From contig JAHHHI010000077.1 in the NCBI GenBank assembly GCA_019359435.1, positions 1 through 64,000 on the forward strand: DNA of 64,000 nt. Reading direction: 5' to 3'. Below, one piece after another: positions 59,957-64,000 of the stretch. The stretch comes from Kaiparowitsia implicata GSE-PSE-MK54-09C. GTDB taxonomy: Bacteria > Cyanobacteriota > Cyanobacteriia > Elainellales > Elainellaceae. The translations under genes and the position numbers were made by a program. Positions within the stretch are counted from its first letter, which is position 1, and each line of letters opens with the position of its first letter. Below the pieces are notes generated by a model that made no database searches, had not been told where the DNA came from, and was given only the letters and a program-made list of their open reading frames with translations.

Positions 59957-60056
59957 ATTGGTTGAGGGGCGCTGCACTAAGGCTCCCTATTTTTTGTCTC
60001 TGCTATTATTTCAAAGCTTTGTACCGTATGACTTTGAATCCTCTTGTCACCCGTTA

Positions 60057-60230
60057 AGCCAATTCCCTAACCTAGGTCGTCCACGCGACGAAATCCTCCC
60101 AGCACTGCGTAGTCTCTCAATGGAGAGCTACCTCATTCTCTATACCGCAACCGAATTTAGAGTAGACATCTTGCGAGTCGTCAGTGGCTACCGCGATCTG
60201 ACGAGCTTGTTCACAGACGACGACGAGTAA
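60057..60230 (+). pseudogene. ParE/RelE-type toxin, C-terminal fragment
   Basis: SQFPNLGRPRDEILPALRSL… SYLILYTATEFRVDILRVVSGYRDL is the typical second half of a ParE/RelE-family toxin. The first half is absent: upstream lies the end of the IS4-type element, so insertion or deletion has removed it. The open frame extends to 59958 but the extra residues are not toxin-like. No antitoxin gene is next to it. Confidence 0.65.
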
Positions 60231-60239
60231 TCAATTTTC

Positions 60240-60462
60240 GGTAGACACGGTAGACGCCCGGTAGACACAGTGTCTACCGGGCAAAAGCCTTTATCCACAA
60301 GCCCTTCAGCCATTTCGGTAGGCAGTAGACACTTTCCTAGCAATTCCCCATTGGTAAACCCTGTCTACTTGTCTACCGTTTCGCTATAACCCTTATCCAT
60401 CAATATTTTCAGCGGTAGACACCCTGTCTACCGTTTCCTCAAATCTGTCTACCGCGTCTACC
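60240..60462. repeat. Iteron-like cluster of GGTAGAC words
   Basis: The heptamer GGTAGAC or its complement GTCTACC occurs nine times exactly in 223 bases (60240, 60249, 60260, 60272, 60371, 60414, 60426, 60447, 60456), with near copies at 60324 and 60363. Both orientations occur and some are paired as hairpins (60260-60278, 60414-60432). The cluster spans the 3' end of the primase-like pseudogene, so part of it is translated. A plasmid-type replication or copy-control site is the obvious idea. Confidence 0.65.
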
Positions 60463-61339
60463 GTTGCTCGCCACCGCAATCGATTCCCCATTCCCTGGGT
60501 TTCTCCGTACCCCATCGCCTCCAGCTCCAAAAAATGAGCACGAATCACCTCCACTCCCGCCTTCCGTAAACTGCGCTCATAATTCCGCACATCCTTTGCC
60601 CGTAGCCACCCCCGCACCCGCGACAGCTGTATCAGCTTCGTATAGACCAGCTCCAACGCTCCATTCACCGTATTCCCGTCCGCATAGAGCAGCTTCACCT
60701 GACCAATAAACCAACGCCCCAACTTAATTGCCGCCTGCATCTGGCTCGCTTCCACCGCATGGGTCGGCAAATGCCCCTCCACCGCCGCATTCAGACAGTG
60801 CAGAATTAACGCCAGCCGTCCTGTGTAGCCCTGCATTTTGGAATAGACCGCCTGCAAGCCTGGGTGCGTCTCCGTCACCCGTAGCTGATCCAGCTGGTCA
60901 TACCAATCCGCAAACAAGGCCTTGGCCTCAGGGCTCAGCCGGTAGCACTGGGCCGTTAATCTCTCCAACTGCTGGTAGAGGCTATAGAGCCGATCCGACA
61001 CGTCATGGCGCACCGTCCGTCGGGGAAACGGCGCAGGCTTCAGCGGCAGCAAACACCACAAAAACCTGGCCTACTGGCCACTGGCATCCGAGCAATCCCC
61101 CATCATCTCTCGCAGAATATCCGGCTGAATCGTCCCCGTCAGGCTCAGGCTGGTGCGCGGCAGGCTGATACGCAGGCCGCTGGTTCGATTCACCTTCAGC
61201 CCCGAGCCATCAAAGGCCGTCAGCAGCGATTCCTTATCGTTCCCCCGACCATTGCGGTACTGGTTCTGCCCTTTGAACAAGCCCGCCAGCTCATCGGGCG
61301 TTACCAAAATGCCCCGCTCTGGCTGCTGAGACTGAATGC

Positions 61340-61370
61340 GGGCGTTCGCGAAGCGTGTTCTGAAAGAACA
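61340..61370. repeat. Small dispersed repeat (SDR-like), insertion 1
   Basis: GGCGTTCGCGAAGCG followed by TGTTCTGAAAGAAC is a double-hairpin of TTCGCGAA and GTTC/GAAC. It interrupts the DUF3987 frame: removing about 26 bases restores ATREAIV directly to RIQSQQPERG in one frame. Confidence 0.6.
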
Positions 61371-61828
61371 ATCGCCTCCCGTGTCGCATCCGAGGTGTGA
61401 TACTCCCGTGGCATTGGCTTCCTGGGTCGAATGCCCCTATCTTCCGCTCGGGTCTGCTCCCAATCCCGCAGGTCAACCTCATATTCTGAAGCGGCATACT
61501 CATACTCCTGATCCGCCTCCGCCTGGAGCAGCGAGAGCGGCCCCAAAATCTGCCGCTGAATTGGGCTCTTTTTGCTGCCCGAAGGGGCCACTAACCCGGT
61601 GAACACAATCGGCGGCACCGAGAACCCCATCCCGGCATCAATCTCCAGCTCCGTACCCACCCGCAGCAATGATGCTGCCACCGGCAGCAGCGTCACCAGC
61701 ATCGCCGCTGGCGTCGCCCCAATCCAGTCAGCAATCTGCTCTAAGGGGTCTGCCAGCTCAGCATGGAGATACTCCCCGAGACATAGCTGGTAGTCGCCAA
61801 TTTTGAGCAGCTGGTGAATCTCAGCCCG

Positions 61829-61860
61829 GCGTTGGCGTAGCCTCTCCGATAGGAGAATCA
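61829..61860. repeat. Small dispersed repeat (SDR-like), insertion 2
   Basis: GGCGTTGGCGTAGCC and TCTCCGATAGGAGA form two hairpins (GGC-GTA-GCC; TCTCC-GATA-GGAGA), the same two-stem plan as the first copy. It lies exactly where the reading frame changes between EERD and RAEIHQLL. Confidence 0.6.
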
Positions 61861-62845
61861 TCCCGTTCCTCGGTTTGCTCCAATTCTGCCTGCACCAGGG
61901 TGACCAGGTTCCCGATATCCCTGGCCGATATCCCCGTCTCCTGGTGCCACTGAACCACCTGCGCCGCCAAAGCCAATTCGGTGGGGCTGTTGCCCAGATA
62001 GGTGCGTATCTGGTCTTGCAAGGCCTGTACCGACAGTCGCTCAGGGTCTTGAGTAGGGCTGACCTCCAGCTGCCGCAGGTCTTGCACCGCCGCTCGAATC
62101 TGCTCCGCTGTGGCCCCATCGTGAATCCAATCCACCACGTCCAGCCCGCCATGCTTCGGCAGGTTCTGCCAGCGCAGGCTGTCAGGATAGGGATAGCACC
62201 ACTGAGCTGAGGGACAGTCCTGGGCGACTTCCTCCATGTGAGCAATGCCGACCTGATCGCGATCTGGGCACAGCACTAAGTTCGCATCCTGCAAATCCTG
62301 ACGGTAGTCGCCATAGCTGCGGTACTTCTTCGAGCCCCCCAGGGTAGTGGTCGAGGGAATGCCGATCGCCCACAGGGCATCCGCGCAGCCTTCCCCCTCC
62401 ACCATCCAGACGGGTTGACCGATGGATATGGCATTCTGGATATCACGGTACCGGTAAATTGGCACCTGGGCTCTAATCTCAGAGGTTAGCCCCTTGATCC
62501 ACTGTTGCCCATTCCAGTGATACTGGACAAAAAACTTCGCACCGTTGCCCCGATCCACCCGAGTCACCTTCACCAGGGGCTGCCCTGCCCGACTGGGATA
62601 AAAATAGTCCTGCCGCTGCTGGGGTCGAACCGGCTTCTCGGGTGAGGCGGTGGCTGCAAAGTATTGCCCCCACATGCCATCGGCTGTCGCGCCCCGGTAA
62701 ACGTAGCCGTCTACCGCGCCATCCTGATCTACGTGGGTGTGGCAGAACACCACCTCCTGATTCCAGCGGCAGTCTTGGTCTTTGGTTCGTCCACAAATCG
62801 GACAGGGGCGCGATCGCCCCGAGTAAATGTACTGTGCCATGGTTA

Positions 62846-62863
62846 GCTCCTAAATTTAGGAGC
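62846..62863. promoter_or_regulatory. Perfect palindrome covering the ribosome-binding site
   Basis: GCTCCTAAATTTAGGAGC is an 18-base perfect palindrome. In the mRNA of the primase gene it can fold into a 7-pair stem with an AATT loop that hides the AGGAG Shine-Dalgarno six bases before the ATG at 62840. It could alternatively be a protein-binding operator. Confidence 0.6.
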
Positions 62864-62884
62864 CGGGCCATAATCACCAATTGG

Positions 62885-62992
62885 CTAGTACTCAAGGGCG
62901 TAAATATCCCAACCGGTTAGCTCATGGACAGACTGATCAGCCTGAAATTCAACGATCTGGATAGTGGTGTTAATTGTGCCGTTGAGTACTAG
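62885..62992. repeat. Eleven-base perfect inverted repeat upstream of the primase gene
   Basis: CTAGTACTCAA at 62885-62895 and TTGAGTACTAG at 62982-62992 are exact inverted copies 86 bases apart. No gene lies between them, nor in the rest of the gap to 63275. They could be ends of a small element or paired binding sites of the element's control region. Confidence 0.5.
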
Positions 62993-63275
62993 TTTCCACT
63001 AATGGGCGTAACCAGAGTAGACATTTCAAATGACTTTGCTATAGTTGAAGACACTACTTCTAGCAGCACATTGATGCCCTAACTGGTTCAGCGAAAACCA
63101 CATCAGGATGTTGATTGGCCTGGCTCAGAAAATGAACAAAAAAAGTCTGAAACCCTTGCTGTGCCGTAGTTAGGATGTTTTTTCATAGGTCTTAAGAGTG
63201 AGATTTCAAGCCAAGCTCGCCATCATATACTTGGTGAACTATCGATATATTAAGGATGGTTTGATGCCCATGAGG

Positions 63276-63545
63276 TTATCGACGACTAGATCGCTGAGGA
63301 ATCTTGCGCTGATTGCTTAGCAGACTGGCCTGATAGACTTCGATAGCTCGCTGATGGGCCACTGGGTCATGGCGGTTTTGGAGCCAATCTTTGATGAGCT
63401 CCAAGTTGTAGCGGGTACAGCGGCTATTAATGCGAACCCAGTGAATGCCCTCGATTAACAGGCCCTGCAATCTGTATTTTTTTAAGGTAGTGCTGCTGAG
63501 ATTGAGATACCGTAACGCTTCCTGTTTGCTGACAAACTGATTCAT
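63276..63545 (-). CDS. Excisionase-like DNA-binding protein
   Basis: An 89-residue protein with a strong GGAGG ribosome-binding site before the ATG at 63545. The first half (SKQEALRYLNLSSTTLKKYR, GIHWVRINSRCTRYNLELIK) resembles the winged-helix of MerR/excisionase-like proteins that bind att or control sites; the second half is a helix rich in charge. In this eroded element it could have controlled excision or the early genes. It is downstream of the Ner-like gene on the same strand. Confidence 0.6.
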   Translation of the reverse strand: MNQFVSKQEALRYLNLSSTTLKKYRLQGLLIEGIHWVRINSRCTRYNLELIKDWLQNRHDPVAHQRAIEVYQASLLSNQRKIPQRSSRR

Positions 63546-63750
63546 GGGTTACCCCTCCTTTATAACGTTGAGGCCAGATCTCCCGAGGAGACAGGCCGAG
63601 CTTGGCCGCGATCACTTTTTCAACCCTGCGAGACCGTTGCTGCGTCAGGGCATGGGAGATTGCGGAAGGCCCCACACCGAGTTCCTTAGCAATGCCTGCC
63701 AACGTCCAGCCTTACTTACGAAGAGCTGCCTTAATGTCCTCTACGTGCAT
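63427..63750 (-). pseudogene. Ner/Nlp-like DNA-binding protein with nonsense codon
   Basis: From ATG 63750 the frame reads MHVEDIKAALRK, meets TAA at 63712-63714, and continues GWTLAGIAKELGVGPSAISH, SRRVEKVIAAKLGLSPREIW. This is the Ner/Nlp helix-turn-helix family of Mu-like phages and related elements. One nonsense codon after residue 12 removes it, unless translation restarts inside at GTG/ATG (63702), which would lose part of the first helix. The frame stays open past the excisionase start to 63427, but the family match ends near 63546. Confidence 0.6.
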
Positions 63751-63761
63751 AAGATCAACAA

Positions 63762-63791
63762 AGCTCCATCAATTTGTATATTGATGAAGCT
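63762..63791. promoter_or_regulatory. Operator-like palindrome between the divergent regulators
   Basis: AGCTCCATCAAT (63762-63773) and ATTGATGAAGCT (63780-63791) are inverted copies with one mismatch and a 6-base spacer. It lies 12 bases in front of the Ner-like ATG and about 60 before the repressor gene, a suitable place for a lysogeny-type switch. Confidence 0.55.
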
Positions 63792-63809
63792 AACAATTAA
63801 TAACGCGCA

Positions 63810-63825
63810 TGTCAAGCGCTATAAT
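63810..63825. promoter_or_regulatory. Putative divergent promoter elements
   Basis: On the minus strand TTGACA (63815-63810) is a perfect -35; the -10 region would fall in the right arm of the palindrome at 63780-63791. On the plus strand TATAAT (63820-63825) is a perfect -10, 28 bases before the repressor ATG, without a good -35. Confidence 0.4.
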
Positions 63826-63852
63826 TTGCAATACTAAATCTCTGGACTTGCG

Positions 63853-64000
63853 ATGAATGACACGCCTTCTAATGAGGGGCAGGCGGTACTGGCCGACTCA
63901 AACGACTTCCCCCAGCGCTTAAAGCAGGCCGTTGGAGAGAATAGCATTCGAGGATTTGCACGAAGTTGTGGATTCTCTGACACAGTCTTGCGCCAATACC
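63853..64000 (+). CDS. Helix-turn-helix repressor-like protein, partial at edge
   Basis: Starts MNDTPSNEGQAVLADSNDFP and continues RLKQAVGENSIRGFARSCGF… to the window edge. The second part is a typical helix-turn-helix of phage or element repressors (RLKQAVGENSIRGFARSCG resembles many Mu-type or cI-like N-termini). 49 codons are visible and the rest lies outside. It is divergent from the Ner-like gene, as in transposable-phage control regions. No strong ribosome-binding site is visible. Confidence 0.6.
   Translation, partial: MNDTPSNEGQAVLADSNDFPQRLKQAVGENSIRGFARSCGFSDTVLRQY

Follow-up and report, generated by a model that had tools for sequence, protein, structure and literature searches.

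The window, a stretch of 64,000 nucleotides from Kaiparowitsia implicata GSE-PSE-MK54-09C (contig JAHHHI010000077.1, positions 1 to 64,000), carries a DUF3987 gene, the product of which we take to be primase/helicase-like. Its frame runs from an ATG at 62840 to a TAA at 60395–60393 and shifts twice, at two short elements termed B and A.

60393–62840, minus strand: DUF3987 gene, with PF13148 in three pieces; 799 codons including the stop when the inserts are omitted; broken by B, A and a TAG
61832–61856, plus strand: element B, 25 bp; TT, a hairpin with a 3-bp stem and a hairpin with a 5-bp stem; lies between two codons
61345–61370, plus strand: element A, 26 bp, of B-like design, in the context GCG-insert-ATCGC; falls after the second base of a codon
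61071–61073, minus strand: premature TAG in the C-terminal part of DUF3987; TGG in the other two filled copies (C16, same genome; G307, another genome) and in the G037 and G047 copies

The spacing of A and B is 487 bp. B adds 1 base modulo 3 and A adds 2; with both omitted, a single DUF3987 frame results, interrupted solely by the TAG. A preliminary description had placed double-hairpin stretches at both frameshifts and had stated that removing a length not divisible by three restores the frame; both statements hold, and alignment gives the lengths as 25 and 26 bp. Element A separates the C part from what we assume, by eye, to be a Walker-A-like motif.

The carrier mobile element and its filled copies

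An S24/HTH repressor and a tyrosine integrase stand next to both gene copies of this genome and next to the G307 copy; in G307 these neighbours were assigned to families by resemblance to their C16 counterparts. Family search found small HTH proteins around the window copy only. Two further features flank the gene there.

63276–63545, minus strand: HTH_17-like small protein; its 21.9 bits fall short of the Pfam cut-off, 27
60240–60462, strand not assigned: densely clustered GGTAGACR octamers in direct and reverse-complement orientation, next to the DUF3987 gene on its downstream side

We infer that the HTH_17-like protein is excisionase-like and part of the mobile element. Its frame overlaps a second small HTH frame (HTH_35; 63427–63702, minus strand), and one of the two may be frame-shifted against the other. 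The GGTAGACR cluster is present in all three filled copies, in the other two at L005 15580–15802 and L231 3301–3523; it looks iteron-like and may be a replication origin with iterons. Immediately downstream, the mobile element is followed by a DDE transposase gene (PF01609; 59114–59842, minus strand). At about 64480–65800 of contig C84 (L006 7480–8800), a short way beyond the window, an integrase-like gene belonging to this mobile element has two in-frame stops; the integrases of C16 and G307 are open, with 393 and 389 codons. Judged by the integrase stops and the TAG, the window copy of the element appears to be decaying.

The C16 copy is 91% identical to the window copy over 2.8 kb and has A and B exactly. 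In G307, a genome of another species and another family, the mobile element is present on contig C236, A and B agreeing in 51 of 51 letters, and contig C135 has an empty DUF3987 copy. The filled copies sit on ~9% different sequence despite letter-identical inserts. This sharing, with a second copy in the genome and with a copy in the genome of another family, is apparent from the alignments and is new. The preliminary description had held that two repeats broke one gene, overlooking the TAG lesion and the second gene copy. Both repeats do insert and shift the frame, but C16 and G307 share both, and the TAG is a third lesion. A recent insertion into a single copy was dropped as a candidate when C16, and then G307, proved to carry both inserts.

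The window and C16 copies share a long identical tract.

61494–61859, minus strand: tract identical between window and C16; 341 sites outside the element, a run reached in 0 of 20000 permutations

Because of this run, which begins 3 bp beyond B, the two copies have probably exchanged sequence lately, by conversion or another exchange. In the comparison of the window with G307, each insert is bordered on both sides by only 3 to 15 matching bases before differences resume, and a long gene-conversion tract behind the G307 sharing was rejected on this ground.

Empty homologous sites and the insertion target

The DUF3987 alignment comprises 27 rows, 3 filled and 24 others, of which several end early at contig ends. 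Site B is empty in 24 of 24 other homologues and site A in all 22 that are readable there (the other two rows are G088, which departs from the alignment right behind the site, and G332d, which lacks sequence there). Alignment with intact homologues, as envisaged earlier, thereby fixed the insert limits and the exact lengths. No further filled allele turned up in 63 family genomes (23 matches, E 1e-20 or better) or in 387 class genomes (24 matches, 1e-50), and in 22 more distant loci, covered by the family model alone, that model found no element. With the middle protein as query, viral contigs gave no relative; 17 plasmid records matched, all less than 60% identical.

Because A sits in GCG-insert-ATCGC, its empty site is GCGATCGC (HIP1), with insertion between letters 3 and 4; the junction is not slidable. 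This octamer is found in 17 of the 22 empty alleles readable at A. The context of B is HIP1 with one mismatch, entered at the same position (ACGATCGC in C16 and G307, ATGATCGC in the window), and HIP1 proper is found in 4 of 24 empty alleles there. The window contains 115 HIP1 sites, compared with 1.4 expected from base composition. With such a target, the repeats may move through cutting, nicking or annealing at the palindrome.

A family of SDR5-like repeats

By size, hairpins and target, the inserts are assignable to SDR5-like small dispersed repeats, a known kind, so that the likeness to cyanobacterial small dispersed repeats noted in the preliminary description can be narrowed. Elhai et al. 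reportedly gave the SDR5 unit, in 2008, as 21–27 nt; empty-site alignment puts the present inserts at 25 and 26 bp. On the plus strand, both consist of TT, a 3-bp stem with a 3-base loop, and a 5- or 6-bp stem with a 4- or 3-base loop. RNA folding of B alone is better than that of shuffles (z −2.2 and −2.9 for the two strands), and that of A alone is not or hardly better (z −0.4 and −1.1); in 65–66 bases of gene context, the predicted folds keep just one of the two hairpins per site.

The two-hairpin design is supported by compensatory changes. The flank-free pattern TTGGCGWAGCCTNTCCN{3,5}GGANA, scanned in genome contigs, gave at least 116 stretches; among 80 matches listed, 78 are titled cyanobacterial and the other two Enterococcus and Pseudarthrobacter. 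In the 78 distinct copies among the matches listed that have room on both sides, some of them mutually related, the free stem pair is Watson-Crick in 74 (54 C-G, 13 G-C, 7 T-A), the remaining four being T-G, A-G, C-A and G-A. An alignment of 24 copies, picked by patterns that fix part of the stems, shows pairing in 192 of 192 cells, with three of eight pairs changed on both sides, against 47–60% pairing in slid controls.

The same 78 listed copies served for the junction test. Their joined flanks equal GCGATCGC in 15 cases and come within one mismatch of it in 24 (random sites, 0.06% and 0.25%); junctions shifted by one to four bases never do. More than half of these listed copies lie outside HIP1. 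The HIP1-flanked pattern occurs in 57 of 388 class genomes, the present one included, compared with 0 of 388 for the reversed control. Empty homologous sites, frame-breaking lengths, a HIP1 target and covarying hairpins together bear out the earlier claim that tiny elements had inserted.

Among the copies listed, the 27 from Chamaesiphon are flanked by TCG/ATCGA in 5 cases and GCG/ATCGC in 1, the other 51 in none and 14, respectively. At Chamaesiphon loci L055, L109, L114, L128 and others, the empty site would be TCGATCGA, a HIP derivative of the genus, given in Elhai 2015 (PMC4390886) as the dominant octamer of Chamaesiphon minutus. On the strength of the 5 of 27 copies, the target may follow the host's own palindrome. 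The copies at Chamaesiphon L057, L084 and L118 lie within TTG/ATAGTTGATAG heptamer-like tandem repeats. Rfam families gave no match up to E 1 within 60000–64000.

In the present genome, seven matches to the covariance model exceed 40 bits. A and B of the window and C16 genes supply four of them; C65:103480, C65:82656 and C56:103870 make up the rest and had all gone into model building, so that the seven include no independent find. Seven more score 24–27 bits (E < 0.01). The 24-bp copies at C65:103480, C65:82656, C65:81855 and C109:45950 each lie inside an open stretch, of 485 to 876 codons; the copy at C56:103870 has the same length but lies outside such a stretch. G047 has a close relative of the C65:103480 copy at the equivalent site, and in G037 the stretch around that site is shorter and reads GGGCGATCGCC.

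C65:81855 and C65:82656 (L181, L169) fall in a long open frame of repeated TPR-like units, identified by eye, inside which SDR5-like 24-mers recur (VREAFPxES, three times); duplication of the protein units may have multiplied the repeat as well. The weaker matches at C20:17686, C56:84657, C90:236 and C90:78848 resemble a longer composite repeat that ends at or near CAAACGACTTCGCT and contains an SDR5-like core, similar ones occurring in other cyanobacteria (L051, L059).

Frame neutrality across the family

Frame was counted in 112 distinct copies lying at least 500 bases from locus ends, with 22 copies nearer to an end omitted; a stop-free stretch of at least 200 codons across the site, insert present or absent, stands in for a gene. 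Repeats of 24 bp, which add eight codons, account for 48 of 54 copies in open stretches versus 37 of 58 elsewhere (Fisher p 0.002, copies not being independent), and the bias is also seen at cut-offs of 150 and 250 codons (p 0.0008 and 0.0006). Earlier tallies had given no clear difference (78 copies) and then 33 of 35 in open stretches versus 19 of 25 (p 0.057). Copies of 25 and 26 bp are rarer in open stretches, so that two out-of-frame copies in one gene are unusual. The predominance of frame-neutral 24-mers in open frames also argues that the repeats are not generally removed, spliced or skipped before translation.

Probable recombination among alleles

Linkage was computed for 15 close alleles, 12 of the 27 rows being omitted as distant, partial or duplicate. 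The r2 is 0.26 at up to 3 bp and 0.10 at 15–25 bp, with a background of 0.07, and the third-position spectrum of these alleles is close to 1/i. With linkage near background within ~25 bp and such a spectrum, the alleles look like a heavily recombined pool; the low linkage could instead reflect a star-like tree with recurrent third-position changes, which the 1/i spectrum does not separate from recombination. Differences are somewhat clumped along the gene (dispersion 0.73, compared with at most 0.70 in permutations), indicating some block structure. Segment trees of the N, middle and C parts leave the three filled copies apart and contradict each other, and no branching order was taken from them. 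Since the alleles look heavily recombined, we regard the inserts as indel alleles that related mobile elements have exchanged and now share. In such a pool an insert would reach new backgrounds, and the conserved frame around it would be that of functional donors.

A and B occur together: 3 of 3 filled alleles have both, and of the 22 other alleles readable at A and B none has a single insert. By simple counting, the chance of this joint presence is 1 in 2300 draws, or 1 in 276 with window and C16 counted once. Fine shuffling should separate A from B over 487 bp, and their joint presence speaks against that reading; co-transfer, homing or a joint effect may keep them together. Among private changes, those altering an amino acid make up 33 of 83 in the three filled copies versus 108 of 299 in 13 empty copies (p 0.61); the TAG excepted, decay of the filled copies is not visible in such changes.

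Origin of the double-insert state and alternative explanations

Based on these findings, the best explanation, and one we hold to be probable, is that the DUF3987 gene of an integrated mobile element took up two SDR5-like repeats, of 25 and 26 bp, at sites that are HIP1 or resemble it. The double-insert state would have arisen once, and fine allele-shuffling recombination would then have passed it between related mobile elements, placing it on differing backgrounds. The full DUF3987 protein would no longer be made from the filled gene, and the window copy, with its nonsense codon and broken integrase, would be decaying further.

The inserts are identical, yet the window and G307 copies diverge after only a few bases, which also invites a reading in which the filled state copies itself, as the element plus a few bases, into empty alleles in the manner of a mobile intron, flanking differences persisting. 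The joint travel of A and B would fit, as would the scarcity of other sources: element A, allowing three mismatches, occurs in the present genome only in the two gene copies and among 387 class genomes only in G307. No machinery for such homing is known, however, and with linkage generally lost within about 25 bp, ordinary shuffling is explanation enough. We therefore consider homing unlikely.

The middle segment, out of frame after B, differs between window and G307 by 38 synonymous and 3 amino-acid changes (dS 0.43, dN 0.009), and of 16 codons changed between B and the first in-frame ATG, 14 keep their amino acid. Taken alone, this divergence would say that the frame beyond B was selected while the insert was present. 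The inserts would then be old and the gene functional, SDR5-like repeats of any length being skipped at translation or lost from the message; T4 gene 60 and the byp elements of yeast mitochondria are precedents for bypass. The identity of all insert letters, and the lack of any other stop or frame shift in the C16 and G307 genes, would agree. However, the family-wide 24-bp bias in open frames implies that copies out of frame do harm; the net shifts required at B and A are opposite, the two sites differ in codon phase, and the window copy has a TAG. The loops, free to vary in the rest of the family, do not differ here, a sign that the inserts are young, and recombination with functional alleles yields an equal pattern of synonymous change. 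Bypass was once weighed as the main reading; the 24-bp bias and the loss of linkage lowered it, and we now judge it very improbable.

Production of the N part, middle and C part as three polypeptides acting together is so improbable as to be nearly negligible. Three open frames are indeed left in C16 and G307, and a TTG overlaps the stop that precedes the C part. Yet in G307 the middle frame has no start between B and an ATG 43 codons on, although changes in that interval are largely synonymous, and A parts the presumed Walker-A-like motif from the C part. In C16 and the window, the middle frame extends upstream to other start codons, so that the argument from a missing start applies to G307 alone. 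Sequencing or assembly error is scarcely credible at all: the assembly is a draft of 109 contigs and the 341-site tract could conceal a mis-join between two copies, but both inserts also occur in an independent genome and match a family of like length and design, and the same letters in a 91% identical second copy and another genome make a read error very unlikely.

Significance and comparison with known systems

These repeats are among the smallest mobile elements proposed, and cases with many matched empty alleles are valuable in that length, target letter and frame effect are fixed. A double insertion common to two copies and another species offers a natural test of how repeats travel, with their carrier, by homing or through recombination on a fine scale; selection on them can be measured simply, by the 24-bp bias in open frames. 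Bypass, if true, would give bacteria an equivalent of the mobile translational bypass elements, and it would account for frame conservation beyond each insert in doubly filled copies. The case is ordinary in kind, being SDR5-like, and unusually well documented; its cross-species sharing is worth following.

Rickettsia palindromic elements are short palindromic repeats of about 100–150 bp inserted in frame inside genes. The present inserts are likewise short palindromic repeats within genes, but the family here measures 24–26 bp and the two copies studied are out of frame. REPINs (PMC3116915) are REP doublets with RAYT transposases as proposed movers. They too are short, palindromic, dispersed and non-autonomous; the repeats described here differ as single 24–26-bp units, about half of those sorted lying in open frames.

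Literature searches for SDR5 in the small-dispersed-repeat sense gave only Elhai 2015 (PMC4390886), which describes precise insertion between letters 3 and 4 of HIP1. Element A is in HIP1, and B is at the same position of a HIP1 with one mismatch. The repeats share with SDR5 a size of 24–26 bp, the position between HIP1 letters 3 and 4 and two adjacent hairpins, evident from compensatory changes, the single-element fold of A being weak against shuffles. What differs is the TCG/ATCGA context of some Chamaesiphon copies (5 of 27 listed) and, at the present locus, the occurrence of two out-of-frame copies within one mobile-element gene, common to copies across species.
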